Below, piece after piece: positions 51,082 to 56,075 of a stretch of 64,000 nucleotides of DNA. The translations under genes were made by a program, and so were the position numbers. Origin of the DNA: Rhizobium sp. RU33A (lineage in GTDB: Bacteria > Pseudomonadota > Alphaproteobacteria > Rhizobiales > Rhizobiaceae). Location of the stretch: positions 620,001 through 684,000 of the forward strand of contig NZ_FTMQ01000003.1 of the NCBI RefSeq assembly GCF_900156055.1. The letters are read 5' to 3'. Position 1 is the first letter of the stretch, and each line of letters starts with the position of its first letter. The notes under the pieces are model-generated. The model saw nothing but the letters and a program-made list of their open reading frames with translations. It was not told the origin of the DNA and ran no database searches.

Positions 51082-51286
51082 CGTCCTGCTCCTCGTCGTC
51101 CGGTCCGGCTGTTCAAGCCTTGGCTCGGGCGGTATCACGCAGAATTGCGGGCAGAAAGGGTGAGGGGCCTGAAAATGGTACGCTCCTGCGCTGTTTCTGT
51201 TGCATTCATGGGCTCTCTCACTATATTCCGGCGACCTGACGAGGGGGCCGCGCGGCTCCCCAATACGCTTCAATAGGGAGTCTTTC

Positions 51287-51634
51287 ATGTTTATCACCGA
51301 GGCCTTTGCCCAGGACGCAGTTGCCGCCCCGAGCGCGATGGGATCCGGACTGGAAATGCTGCTGCTCTTCGCACCGCTGATGGTGGTCTGGTATTTCTTC
51401 CTGATCCGTCCGCAGCGGACGCAGATGAAGAAGCGTGAAGAGACGCTTTCCGCCATTCGTCGTGGCGACCAGGTGATCATGGGTGGCGGCATCGTCGCCA
51501 AGGTCACCAAGGTGATCGACGACAAGGAACTCGAACTGGAAATCGCCGATGGCGTGAAGGTTCGTGCGATGCGCCAGTATGTGGCGGAAGTCCGCGTCAA
51601 GGGCGAGCCGGTAAAGACCGAAACCGCCGCCTGA
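51287..51634 (+). CDS. yajC: Preprotein translocase subunit YajC
   Basis: Small inner-membrane partner of SecDF. The 115 residues have one membrane helix (LEMLLLFAPLMVVWYFFLI) and then RPQRTQMKKREETLSAIRRGDQVIMGGGIVAKV, the YajC signature. The ATG at 51287 has AGGGAG six bases upstream. It is followed by secDF, with a small hairpin in between. It probably heads an operon of yajC-secDF-Mth938-like-phytoene-synthase-like genes. Confidence 0.95.
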   Translation: MFITEAFAQDAVAAPSAMGSGLEMLLLFAPLMVVWYFFLIRPQRTQMKKREETLSAIRRGDQVIMGGGIVAKVTKVIDDKELELEIADGVKVRAMRQYVAEVRVKGEPVKTETAA

Positions 51635-51696: not shown

Positions 51697-54249
51697 ATGC
51701 TTTACATTTCCCGCTGGAAGACATTGTTCATCTGGTTGACCGTTGCGCTCGGCGTCCTTGTCGCCCTGCCCAACGCCTTCACGGACGAGGAACTGGAAGC
51801 ATTCCCCTCCTGGTTCCCCACGAGCAAGGTGACGCTCGGCCTCGACCTGCAGGGCGGCTCGCACATCATGCTGAGGCTCGAGCGCCAGGACATCGTCAAG
51901 GAACGCCTTGAGACGGTCGTCGGCGACGTCCGGACCCAGCTTCGCGAAGCCGGCATCCGCTACACGGGCCTTTCCGGCGTAGGGCAGCAGATCCAGGTTC
52001 GCATTACTGACGCGGACAAGGTGCCGGAAGCCATCGAGGCGTTGCGCTCGCTGACCGACCCCGTCAGCGTCGGCGGCCTAACTGGCGGCAGCGTGACGGA
52101 AGTCGCTCTCGAGCAGGCCGAAGGCGGCGTGCTGCGCCTGACGCTGACAGACGCGGGCATTGACTACCGTGTGTCGTCCGCCCTGACCCAGTCGATGGAA
52201 GTCGTTCGCCGCCGTGTCGACGAACTCGGTACGACCGAACCGCTCATTCAGCGCCAGGGTGATGACCGCATCATCGTGCAGGTCCCGGGTCTCACCGATC
52301 CGCAGCGCCTGAAAGCGCTTCTGAACCAGACGGCCAAACTGTCCTTCCACATGGTCGACACGACAATGCCGGTCACGGAGGCGATCAACACGCGTCCGCC
52401 TGCACAGTCGGAAATACTTTATTCGACTGACGACCCGGCTGTTCCCTATCTCATCGAGCGTCGCGCGCTGATTTCGGGTGAAAACCTTGTTGATGCCCAG
52501 GCAGCCTTTGACCAGCGCAGCAATGAGCCGGTGGTCAGCTTCCGTTTCGACAGCCGCGGCGCCCAGCGTTTTGCCCAGGCGACGCAGGAGAATGTCGGCA
52601 ATCCCTTTGCCATCGTCCTCGACCAACAGGTCATTTCCGCACCCGTGATTCGCGAGCCGATCCTCGGCGGTTCCGGCCAGATTTCCGGCAATTTCTCGGT
52701 CGAAGGCGCGAACGACCTTGCTGTCCTCCTGCGCGCCGGTGCTCTGCCGGCGACCCTGACGGTCGTCGAGGAACGCACCGTTGGCCCCGGCCTCGGCCAG
52801 GACTCGATCAATGCCGGCGTGACCGCCAGCATCATCGGCGGCATCGCGGTCGTTCTCTTTATGCTCGCCTTCTACGGCACCTTCGGCGTGATGGCGAATA
52901 TCGCGCTCGCGGCCAACATTGCGCTGATCCTCGCGGGGCTATCGATGATCGGGTCGACGCTCACCCTGCCGGGCATCGCGGGTATCGTGCTCACCATGGG
53001 TATGGCCGTCGACTCGAACGTACTGATCTATGAGCGCATTCGAGAGGAAGCTCGAAACGGTCGACCCTTGGTGCAGGCGATCGACGTCGGTTTCAAGAAG
53101 GCCTTTGCGACCATTGTCGACGCCAACCTCACGACGTTGATTGCGGCCGTCGTTCTATTCTTCCTCGGGTCCGGCCCTGTGCGCGGCTTCGCCGTCACAC
53201 TGTCGATCGGTATCGTGACGACCGTCTTTACCGCCTTCACCCTGACCTTCTGGTTGATGGCTTTCTGGTACCGTTGGAAGCGCCCGAAGCAGATTCCGAA
53301 AAGCGTACGCACCGGTTTCTTCGACAGCCGCAACATTCGCTTCATGGCGGCCCGCAAGTTCAATTTTGGACTGGCAATGCTCATCTCGGTAGCCTCGCTG
53401 GTCGGCTTTGCAACTGTTGGCATGAACCTCGGGATCGACTTCAAGGGCGGCTCCATCATCGAGGTGCAGGCGCGTGACGGCACCGCGGATCTCTCCGATA
53501 TCCGAGACCGTCTGAGCCAGCTGAACCTCGGCGAGGTGCAGGCGCAGGGCTTTGGCGACGATGCCAGCGCGCTGATTCGCCTTCAGGCGCAGGATGGCGG
53601 CGAGAATGCCGAACAGTCGGCTCTGACCAAGGTGCGCGGCGAACTGGAAGCCGAATACGATTTTCGCCGTGTCGAAGTGGTCGGACCGTCGGTATCAAGC
53701 GACCTGACCTATTCCGCCACGATCGGCGTTGTGGCAGCCTTGTTCGGGATCCTGATCTACATCTGGTTCCGCTTCGAGTGGCAGTTCGCGCTGGGCGCGA
53801 TCATTGCAACCTTGCATGACGTGGTCTTCACGCTCGGCCTGTTCGTCCTGACCGGTATCGAGTTCAACCTGACGAGTATCGCCGCGATCCTGACGATCAT
53901 CGGTTACTCGCTGAACGATACGGTCGTCGTTTATGACCGCATGCGAGAAAACCTCAGGCGCTATAAGAAGATGCCGCTTGAGGTGCTGATCGATGAATCG
54001 ATCAACCAGACGCTGTCGCGCACGGTGCTGACGGCCGGTAGTACGATCCTCGCGCTGGGTGCGCTCTACCTGTTCGGCGGTGAAGTCATTGCCTCCTTCA
54101 CCTTTGCCATGCTTGCAGGTGTTCTGATTGGCACCTTCTCGTCGATCTACATCGCAGGCCCGATTTTGATCGCCTTCAAGCTGCGTCCTGAATCGTTCCA
54201 GCAGGACGAAAGCGAAGGCGAGAAAATGCCGGCCAAGGCCGGAGCCTGA
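51697..54249 (+). CDS. secDF: Protein translocase SecD-SecF fusion
   Basis: Proton-driven membrane protein that helps pull exported proteins across after SecA-SecYEG. One 850-residue chain contains SecD (about 1-540: GLDLQGGSHIMLRL, periplasmic P1 domain, AVDSNVLIYERIREE) and SecF (about 545-850: GIDFKGGSIIEVQA near residue 580, LNDTVVVYDRMRENLRR). Each half brings six membrane helices. Fused SecDF occurs in many rhizobia and in Bacillus; E. coli has two genes. Two small genes follow closely (4 and 23 bp). Confidence 0.97.
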   Translation: MLYISRWKTLFIWLTVALGVLVALPNAFTDEELEAFPSWFPTSKVTLGLDLQGGSHIMLRLERQDIVKERLETVVGDVRTQLREAGIRYTGLSGVGQQIQVRITDADKVPEAIEALRSLTDPVSVGGLTGGSVTEVALEQAEGGVLRLTLTDAGIDYRVSSALTQSMEVVRRRVDELGTTEPLIQRQGDDRIIVQVPGLTDPQRLKALLNQTAKLSFHMVDTTMPVTEAINTRPPAQSEILYSTDDPAVPYLIERRALISGENLVDAQAAFDQRSNEPVVSFRFDSRGAQRFAQATQENVGNPFAIVLDQQVISAPVIREPILGGSGQISGNFSVEGANDLAVLLRAGALPATLTVVEERTVGPGLGQDSINAGVTASIIGGIAVVLFMLAFYGTFGVMANIALAANIALILAGLSMIGSTLTLPGIAGIVLTMGMAVDSNVLIYERIREEARNGRPLVQAIDVGFKKAFATIVDANLTTLIAAVVLFFLGSGPVRGFAVTLSIGIVTTVFTAFTLTFWLMAFWYRWKRPKQIPKSVRTGFFDSRNIRFMAARKFNFGLAMLISVASLVGFATVGMNLGIDFKGGSIIEVQARDGTADLSDIRDRLSQLNLGEVQAQGFGDDASALIRLQAQDGGENAEQSALTKVRGELEAEYDFRRVEVVGPSVSSDLTYSATIGVVAALFGILIYIWFRFEWQFALGAIIATLHDVVFTLGLFVLTGIEFNLTSIAAILTIIGYSLNDTVVVYDRMRENLRRYKKMPLEVLIDESINQTLSRTVLTAGSTILALGALYLFGGEVIASFTFAMLAGVLIGTFSSIYIAGPILIAFKLRPESFQQDESEGEKMPAKAGA

Positions 54250-54253
54250 TTCG

Positions 54254-54652
54254 ATGGTTTTCGGCTTCGGCGACAAGGGCGTCACCATCCGTGACGCCCA
54301 CTTCCCGGGGCGGCCCGGTATAGACAGTTACGGCAATGGCGGCTTCCGCTTCGCCGACATGTCGCATCGCGGCTCGCTTCTCCTGCTTCCCTCAGGCGTC
54401 TATGGCTGGGAGCAGACCGAGGAGGAGCCGATCACGCAAGCCTCGCTCGCACGCGTGTTTGGCGAAACCGGCATCGAATTCCTGCTCTTGGGCACCGGCC
54501 GGCAGTTGCGCCTTGTCGACCCCGATTTGCGGGTCGCATTGAAGGCGAGGGGCATCGCGACCGATCCCATGGGAACCGGTGCTGCAATCCGCACGTATAA
54601 CATCATGCTGGCCGAGCAGCGTCCGGTCGCGGCCGCGTTGATCGCAGTCTGA
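54254..54652 (+). CDS. Mth938-like domain protein (NDUFAF3 homologue)
   Basis: A 132-residue single-domain protein of the Mth938/DUF498 fold. It shows GFRFADMSHRGSLLLLPSGVYGW, FLLLGTGRQLRLVDPDL and TDPMGTGAAIRTYNIMLAEQRPVAAALI, the family core. Human NDUFAF3, a mitochondrial complex I assembly factor, has the same domain. It starts four bases after secDF, so it is co-translated with a membrane-insertion factor. The next gene also resembles a complex I assembly factor. A role in complex I or other membrane-complex assembly is inference from these homologies. Confidence 0.85.
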   Translation: MVFGFGDKGVTIRDAHFPGRPGIDSYGNGGFRFADMSHRGSLLLLPSGVYGWEQTEEEPITQASLARVFGETGIEFLLLGTGRQLRLVDPDLRVALKARGIATDPMGTGAAIRTYNIMLAEQRPVAAALIAV

Positions 54653-54675
54653 ACCCGTCCCTCGAAAGGTGCATT

Positions 54676-55530
54676 GTGAGCGAGACCCCGTCGGCGAATG
54701 AGGCACTTTGCCTGCGGGCACTGCAGGAGTCGGACCGAGACCGCTATCTCGCGAGCCTGCTGACGCCGGCCGATCGGCGGGCCGCCATCGTCGCCCTCTA
54801 CGCATACAACGCCGAGCTTGCCCGCGTTCGTGACGTGGTGCGCGAACCTCTCCCCGGCGAGGTGCGCCTGCAATACTGGCGCGACTTGCTTGAAGGCTCC
54901 GCCCACGGCGAGACGGCGGCCAACCCTGTCGCCGCAGAACTGCTACGCGCCGTACAGACCTGGCGACTGCCCGTAGCGCCACTCGTCGCCATGGCCGACG
55001 CGCGCATCTTCGACCTCTACGACGATCCGATGGAAACGCCTGCGATGTTCGAAGGCTATGCCGGCGAGACGGCGGCGGCGCTGATCCAGCTTTCATCTCT
55101 GGTTCTCGATGCAGAGGCTGCCGAAGCTGTATCCGAGATCGCAGGGCATGCGGGTGTGGCGCTTGCGGTTGCCGGTGCGATCTTGCTGATGCCGATCCAC
55201 CGGGCCCGAGGGCAGGTTTACCTGCCGACACAGATCCTTGCCTGCGTCGGACTGGACCGGGACGCATTTCTGGCCGGAGGCAACGACGAGCGGATGACCG
55301 CCGGCATTCAGGCCTTCGCCGGTTTCGGTCTCGATCACTTGCGCAAGGCGCGTGCGGCCGGTGCGATACCGAAGAGCCTGCTCGCCGCCTTCCTACCTGC
55401 GACGCTGGCAGAGCCGGTGCTCAAGCGGGCGATGAAGATTGGCCACGCGTCTCTCTCGACCGATATTCGCCCGCCGCAATGGCGACGGCAGATGGCAATG
55501 ATGCGCATGTTGCTGACCGGTCGGCTCTGA
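54676..55530 (+). CDS. Squalene/phytoene synthase-like protein without aspartate motifs (NDUFAF6-like)
   Basis: A 284-residue all-helical protein of the trans-isoprenyl diphosphate synthase fold. Where true phytoene synthases have Asp-rich DxxxD motifs, this protein reads YAYNAELARVRDVVREP and LIQLSSLVLDAEAAEA, so substrate-metal binding appears lost. PIHRARGQVYLPTQIL matches the family segment before the C-terminal helix. Human NDUFAF6, a complex I assembly factor, is this kind of degenerate family member. The start is GTG at 54676 with GAAAGG upstream. No carotenoid or hopanoid genes are nearby, which speaks against an isoprenoid role. Confidence 0.82.
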   Translation: MSETPSANEALCLRALQESDRDRYLASLLTPADRRAAIVALYAYNAELARVRDVVREPLPGEVRLQYWRDLLEGSAHGETAANPVAAELLRAVQTWRLPVAPLVAMADARIFDLYDDPMETPAMFEGYAGETAAALIQLSSLVLDAEAAEAVSEIAGHAGVALAVAGAILLMPIHRARGQVYLPTQILACVGLDRDAFLAGGNDERMTAGIQAFAGFGLDHLRKARAAGAIPKSLLAAFLPATLAEPVLKRAMKIGHASLSTDIRPPQWRRQMAMMRMLLTGRL

Positions 55531-55625: not shown

Positions 55626-56075
55626 ATGGTGACCTGGGGTATCGTCTTTGCGCTCATCCTGGCGCTGGCCTATCTTTCCTCGCGTATGGTGCGCCAGGAG
55701 GATGAGGGGTTTCAGGATGCTGGCCTCGCCATCCTCGAATTCGGCCGCGCCTTTCCGCAGGAGGCAATCCGCAGCCTGCACGCCACGATCGACGGCAAGG
55801 CCGTCTTCGTCCGTTTGCATGACAACAAGGCAGGCTTTATGCGCAGCATGCGCAACCATTTCGCCTGTCATCTGATCCAGCCCGGCACCGTGCGTGTCAG
55901 CGCCTTGCCGAACGGCAAGGGGATCGCCGTCGAGTTTCTCGATGCATCCTTGCACAACGGCGAGTTCACCTTTGCCAATCCGGCGATTGCGGCAGAAGTT
56001 TCCCTCTGGCTACTCGGCAACTATGTCGGCCATGCTGACCGGGAGCCGGACGCTGCCTCGGGCGCGACCGGCTGA
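55626..56075 (+). CDS. Hypothetical protein with N-terminal membrane helix
   Basis: A 149-residue protein. The first helix (TWGIVFALILALAYLSS) should anchor it in the membrane; the rest is a soluble alpha/beta domain with GKAVFVRLHDNKAGFM, a cysteine in NHFACHLIQPG, and RVSALPNGKGIAVEFLDASLHNGEF. I do not recognise a named family. The ATG at 55626 is the first codon giving a membrane start. It is convergent with trmFO and follows the phytoene-synthase-like gene by 95 bp. Confidence 0.6.
   Translation: MVTWGIVFALILALAYLSSRMVRQEDEGFQDAGLAILEFGRAFPQEAIRSLHATIDGKAVFVRLHDNKAGFMRSMRNHFACHLIQPGTVRVSALPNGKGIAVEFLDASLHNGEFTFANPAIAAEVSLWLLGNYVGHADREPDAASGATG

Follow-up and report, generated by a model that had tools for sequence, protein, structure and literature searches.

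Probable bacterial counterparts of the complex I assembly factors NDUFAF3 and NDUFAF6 downstream of secDF in Rhizobium sp. RU33A

Mutations in the assembly factors NDUFAF3 and NDUFAF6 lead to severe human complex I disease. The mitochondrial subunits NDUFS2, NDUFS3, NDUFS7, and ND1 have the bacterial counterparts NuoD, NuoC, NuoB, and NuoH, respectively. Saada et al. in 2009 are said to have tied NDUFAF3 by gene conservation to SecF, SecD, and YajC as well as to C8ORF38 (NDUFAF6); hence, the core finding on gene order presented here is already known and appears to have been outlined in print that year. The locus described below shows the same three-way neighborhood as that reportedly noted in 2009, to which a census of gene order, the loss of secDF, and a pattern involving the NuoCD fusion are added here. 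NDUFS2, NDUFS3, NDUFS7, ND6, and several accessory subunits are listed for human NDUFAF3, which is also placed with the Q module (PMC4992684, PMC6056716). Human NDUFAF6 has been described as acting in the biogenesis of ND1 and in the assembly of complex I (PMC8007014, PMC12470011), with links both to ND1 and to the Q module (PMC8007014, PMC6056716). Four bacterial NDUFAF6 orthologues have already been used as an outgroup in a study that cites Lemire 2017 for the evolution of this factor (PMC8007014), and both factors are listed for the jakobid Andalucia godoyi (PMC7050145). A joint mention of NDUFAF3 with SecDF or YajC was not found in the literature searched, outside of which most subscription papers lie; likewise, the literature search yielded no mutant studies or biochemical data on bacterial members.

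The window (the whole stretch of DNA analyzed, 64,000 nucleotides of contig NZ_FTMQ01000003.1 of Rhizobium sp. RU33A) harbors four consecutive genes of interest on the forward strand. The first is yajC, encoding a Sec translocon accessory subunit (51290..51634; PF02699, 80.8 bits; TIGR00739, 77.8 bits), the start of which was set at 51290 within the mechanical ORF 51200-51634. It is followed by secDF, coding for a fused SecD-SecF protein (51697..54249; NF011315, 1431.9 bits against a cut-off of 1249), and the SecD/SecF and YajC Pfam domains were confirmed upstream of the third gene. The latter (54254..54652) begins after a gap of 4 bp on the same strand and encodes a DUF498/Mth938-like protein of 132 aa (PF04430, 105.2 bits; cut-off 33), the putative counterpart of NDUFAF3. 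After a further 23 bp, a gene with a GTG start, preceded by AAAGG 6 bases upstream, encodes a 284-aa protein of the SQS_PSY family lacking the catalytic motifs (54676..55530; PF00494, 162.6 bits; cut-off 26), the putative counterpart of NDUFAF6. The first-pass annotation had described this gene line and its spacing (4 and 23 bp), and its coordinates were exact. Further upstream, a PCMT-like methyltransferase and an M23/LysM protein are encoded, together with a DUF815 ATPase on the opposite strand. Directly downstream lies a short protein without a Pfam family (55626..56075, forward strand), followed by a GidA-family gene on the opposite strand, which we take to be TrmFO. The short protein appears by eye to contain one N-terminal membrane helix. 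Among the 80 top-ranking of 565 named loci found, 37 carry kin of it on the same strand; no part in the function of the pair is claimed for it.

Both DxxxD sites of prenyl synthases are altered in the NDUFAF6-like protein of the window. The alignment columns of the first site fall on ARVRD (residues 49-53; codons at 54820..54834, forward strand) and those of the second on LMPIH (residues 171-175; codons at 55186..55200, forward strand), where 97 of the 99 SQS_PSY paralogues aligned from Alpha- and Gammaproteobacteria have DxxxD at both sites. In set A1 (38 proteins, that of the window included), DxxxD is absent from both sites throughout. At the first site, AxxxE occurs in 26 of these 38 and AxxxD in 5, and at the second site AxxxH is found in 18. 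The human and Arabidopsis NDUFAF6 proteins have AxxxD followed by AxxxH/SxxxH, a pattern from which the Drosophila protein departs (PMC12470011). In the window protein, the first site reads AxxxD and the second LxxxH, in place of the AxxxH/SxxxH of human and Arabidopsis NDUFAF6 (C8orf38).

A working sequence of human NDUFAF6 served as query, and all nine residues named in published variants agreed with it. The top 27 matches of this sequence were all NDUFAF6-like proteins of cluster loci, 26 with SecDF upstream and the remaining one from L082. The window protein ranked 21st (106 bits, E 1.7e-30), and the best other SQS_PSY protein reached 91.7 bits. Phylogenetic analysis (76 of 145 rows) placed this human NDUFAF6 sequence and 31 NDUFAF6-like proteins, including that of the window, in one clade of 32 rows with a support of 100/99, separate from the HpnC/HpnD/CrtB-like enzymes. 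Structural modeling of the window protein using AlphaFold2 (mean pLDDT 93.7, pTM 0.92) showed a squalene-synthase fold, the best match being CrtM-like (Z 28.6, rmsd 2.6, 272 aligned residues, 16% identity). Prenyl synthases were the best fold matches and terpene synthases of the wider fold came next, giving no hint of function.

A catalytically active squalene, presqualene, or phytoene synthase as the product of the NDUFAF6-like gene is suggested by the Pfam score and by the fold in common with the CrtM-like enzymes. However, this reading is highly improbable and was rejected on the basis of the motif loss, the tree, and the equivalog scores, which lay far below the NCBIfam cut-offs (HpnD, 77 of 278.6; HpnC, 31.6 of 250.45; CrtB, 35.2 of 550). 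The HpnC/HpnD/CrtB synthases share the fold and the Pfam family with the window protein, which lacks DxxxD and falls in a separate clade. In addition, the other SQS_PSY protein of the same genome (L001) retains both motifs intact as DDLID and DVGED. The NDUFAF6-like gene of the window is likely to be orthologous to NDUFAF6, as judged from sequence, and this case is firmer than that for NDUFAF3. The earlier assignment to the NDUFAF6 type with loss of the aspartate motifs was borne out by the human-query ranking, the clade, and the motifs; a placement among catalytic synthases, which the first-pass annotation had named as the result that would speak against it, was looked for in the tree and was not found.

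Other SQS_PSY genes were noted in related neighborhoods. An extra divergent SQS_PSY frame beside the NDUFAF6-like gene (L073:8400-9563, L094:4906-5946, and L093:10665-12257) formed a long-branched clade of its own outside the NDUFAF6 clade. The loci L063, L064, L074, L078, L097, L106, L111, and L115 had SQS_PSY genes of the other type, in some cases as pairs, close to DUF498 and the NDUFAF6-like gene on the opposite strand. L287 (genome G401), an SQS_PSY protein from Gammaproteobacteria that lacks the DxxxD motifs, grouped beside the NDUFAF6 clade (99/96).

The DUF498 protein of the window was related to bacterial proteins of solved structure (2fi9, E 5.6e-39; 2fvt, E 6.6e-33). The family is wide and also includes human C11orf67 (2ab1), which was left out of the tree. 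Human NDUFAF3 was likewise queried with a working sequence, in which both residues checked against published variants were correct. Of its 120 matches, 78 were alphaproteobacterial, as were 19 of the best 20, an excess with a chance of 0.001 if the rows are independent. A quick tree of 81 rows placed this human NDUFAF3 sequence on the alphaproteobacterial side (SH-aLRT 97.6), on a long branch and with 114 columns. NDUFAF3 (C3orf60) and the window DUF498 protein share the domain, but the similarity between this human sequence and the protein of the window was middling (rank 72 of 120, 40 bits). The kinship with NDUFAF3 proposed earlier for the Mth938-like gene is in agreement with the PF04430 domain and the position in the tree, and these data support a descent of NDUFAF3 from an alphaproteobacterial DUF498 gene, less firmly than in the case of NDUFAF6. 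Profile searches of the PDB found no solved eukaryotic NDUFAF3 or NDUFAF6; the hits listed were DUF498 structures from bacteria, C11orf67, and catalytic synthases, apart from a few weak matches attributable to chance. The two genes are quite probably the bacterial counterparts of NDUFAF3 and NDUFAF6, most likely helping to assemble the cell's own complex I.

The gene order was evaluated in 115 genomes of Alphaproteobacteria, drawn at about one per family. Of these, 61 contained DUF498, giving 61 loci (60 fetched and that of the window), several of which are stretches ending at contig ends. SecDF or SecD-SecF was located upstream of DUF498 on the same strand in 60 of these loci; downstream, again on that strand, 44 had an NDUFAF6-like gene scoring above 140 bits and a further two had weaker frames. 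The arrangement is not due to chance, because it recurs across alphaproteobacterial families, and the earlier expectation of a gene order kept across Alphaproteobacteria held. The DUF498 and NDUFAF6-like frames touch or nearly so in 5 of the 44 family-level loci; in the remaining 39, they are separated by ∼0.5 to 7.4 kb, mostly occupied by other frames of no common family. The tight spacing seen in the window is not the rule. Cytochrome c biogenesis genes had been expected between the two, an idea that was dropped after a scan of 13 gap frames, which comprised three urate-oxidase-N, one superoxide dismutase, and one radical SAM frame and eight frames without a family.

Among the 80 named loci mentioned above, which by their titles are from Hyphomicrobiales except one, DUF498 and the NDUFAF6-like gene were on one strand in all 80, and SecDF was alongside in 69. 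The other 11 (L122, L124-L130, L166, L168, and L179; Rhizobium-like and related) keep yajC, DUF498, and the NDUFAF6-like gene and lack secDF, as is also the case for L082. No SecDF remnant was detected in these 11 loci or in L082 at E up to 1. The yajC and DUF498 frames of the loci without secDF are at most 101 bp apart, and three pairs overlap. Further SecDF copies with 47 to 49% identity were present on replicons of Aminobacter, Rhizobium, and Azospirillum. Outside Alphaproteobacteria, SecDF was not found beside any of 42 DUF498 genes (flanks up to ∼1.5 kb). One locus, L170, lies on a contig titled Xylophilus, a betaproteobacterial name, and bears the alphaproteobacterial cluster; it is probably mis-binned.

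These observations bear on the single linked, conserved module for membrane insertion and complex I assembly that the first-pass annotation proposed. The conserved order speaks for it; the absence of secDF from the 11 loci and L082, its absence beside the non-alphaproteobacterial DUF498 genes, and the occurrence of either gene singly in 25 of the 115 genomes speak against it, and a single kept module is only partly supported. The adjacency to secDF, a gene order found in Alphaproteobacteria, can be lost and is no requirement. It is about evenly balanced whether the neighborhood is a historical one that became frozen, in which both genes serve complex I and the proximity of secDF has no functional meaning. 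The clean drop-out of SecDF and the location of DUF498 elsewhere outside Alphaproteobacteria are consistent with such a history, as is the frequent retention in the same neighborhood of PCMT, M23 peptidase, DUF815, and TrmFO genes with no evident kinship in function. However, the order is kept in nearly all family-level loci, and the gap of 4 bp on one strand between secDF and DUF498 favors shared expression. A frozen neighborhood is compatible with an assembly role for the two genes and opposes only the module.

The constancy of SecDF before DUF498 could also indicate a general role of the two proteins in membrane-protein insertion or export beside SecDF-YajC, with the complex I role acquired or narrowed only in mitochondria. 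This explanation is unlikely, as both genes stay in the loci from which SecDF has gone and no SecDF was found next to DUF498 within the flanks of the 42 genes outside Alphaproteobacteria.

In the alphaproteobacterial draw, DUF498 was present in 61/104 NuoH-positive and 0/11 NuoH-negative genomes, and the NDUFAF6-like type in 70/104 and 0/11, respectively. Both genes occurred in 53 of the 115 genomes and neither in 37, of which 26 are NuoH-positive. Complex I can therefore be built without them, as 26 of 104 NuoH-positive Alphaproteobacteria have neither, a figure that is also in line with the general insertion role. The 11 NuoH-negative genomes are all ≤1.8 Mb. When the comparison was confined to genomes of this size, either gene was found in 2/18 NuoH-positive vs. 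0/11 NuoH-negative Alphaproteobacteria (p 0.51), and the tie vanished. The alphaproteobacterial draw proves little, since genome size confounds the comparison, and because the tie fails this control the weight is carried by Gammaproteobacteria.

The gammaproteobacterial draw (in the GTDB sense) consisted of 140 genomes, about one per family. DUF498 was found in 108/121 NuoH-positive vs. 5/19 NuoH-negative genomes (p 2e-8). The five NuoH-negative holders (G309, G136, G351, G392, and G398), which also lack NuoC, fit a general insertion role. Among NuoH-negative genomes of ≥2.8 Mb, DUF498 was present in 1/11; genome reduction is therefore not the cause of its absence there. A difference was also related to the type of NuoC: DUF498 was present in 107/113 genomes with a separate NuoC vs. 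0/7 of those with only a fused NuoCD (p 3e-8), a tracking of complex I type that a general insertion role does not predict. One genome, G367, was dropped owing to a hydrogenase-like match with both domains in one frame, leaving 107/112 with separate NuoC. Domain scans verified the fusion in all seven fused-only genomes, both subunit domains lying in one frame; a separate NuoC frame was confirmed in 13 Gammaproteobacteria and in the genome of the window, and the rest were judged by frame length. Two genomes with one fused and one separate copy each (G385 and G428) both keep DUF498.

A phylum draw outside Alphaproteobacteria showed, among the matches listed, DUF498 with 0/16 fused-length frames and in 1/19 NuoC-negative genomes. 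It also contained at least 21 genomes that lack DUF498 and have NuoC as a short frame of its own, from families f116, f119, f122, f127, f128, f132, f136, and f138 and one of f118; these families are mostly not represented in the gammaproteobacterial draw. For the control of relatedness, supported independent pairs were taken from an RpoB tree of 100 genomes. Three pairs contrasted fused with separate NuoC, and an average of 2.9 of them lacked DUF498 on the fused side; in four pairs with and without separate-type complex I, DUF498 followed in 2.8. For NuoH present vs. absent, there were five pairs, with DUF498 following in 1.2 on average and showing no difference in 3.8. None of these comparisons can reach p 0.05, and the NuoH pairs do not support a simple tie, which again accords with the general insertion role.

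The two factors differ in range, because the NDUFAF6 type is nearly absent from the 140 Gammaproteobacteria, where matches starting at the N-terminus were seen in three genomes at 24 to 52 bits, and DUF498 is found more widely, being matched also in the Thermus and Methanosarcina controls. Within the sample, the NDUFAF6 type is alphaproteobacterial and mitochondrial. The association of DUF498 with the type of NuoC points to assembly of the Q module, with thin support once the tree is controlled for. Neither the NuoCD pattern nor the clean loss of secDF was found in print by a search outside of which most subscription papers lie, and as far as found both are new here.

In the assembly role favored above, the DUF498 protein would hold or pair the peripheral Q-module subunits NuoC, NuoD, NuoB, and NuoI, whose counterparts NDUFS3, NDUFS2, NDUFS7, and NDUFS8 are each listed for NDUFAF3, and it could become dispensable where NuoC and NuoD are made as one chain. 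The NDUFAF6-like protein may be a pseudo-enzyme, a helical prenyl-synthase fold without catalytic residues situated at the membrane, which would steady NuoH, the ND1 counterpart, or the region of the quinone site after insertion. The secDF-yajC neighborhood may provide shared expression with the insertion machinery. A more specific version can be offered tentatively, and it is doubtful: DUF498/NDUFAF3 might act as a clamp joining the separately made NuoC and NuoD (NDUFS3 and NDUFS2) in the Q module, which became needless after the NuoCD fusion in the E. coli-like lineage, where the gene was lost. A somewhat stronger possibility, held at a little under even, is that DUF498 tracks the E. coli-like complex I lineage for a reason other than this fusion, e.g., another subunit change. 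The fused complex I may be a single lineage with several traits, and the supported independent pairs number only three; against this, the subunits in question, NDUFS2 and NDUFS3, are among those listed for human NDUFAF3, as are ND6 and others.

If true, the clamp would account for the lack of an E. coli counterpart of a conserved human disease factor, and that factor would gain a definite partner. The NuoCD pattern turns a remark on gene order into a checkable claim on the subunits served by NDUFAF3 and would explain why E. coli, the standard model, cannot show the role of this factor. The simple alphaproteobacterial counterparts offer a tractable test bed for NDUFAF3 and NDUFAF6.

The chromosomal distance between DUF498 and NuoC was also evaluated in 12 Gammaproteobacteria having both on one near-complete contig. 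The two were never adjacent, and their distance was smaller than the uniform expectation, with a mean of 0.27 of half the circumference (KS p 0.001, relatedness being ignored).
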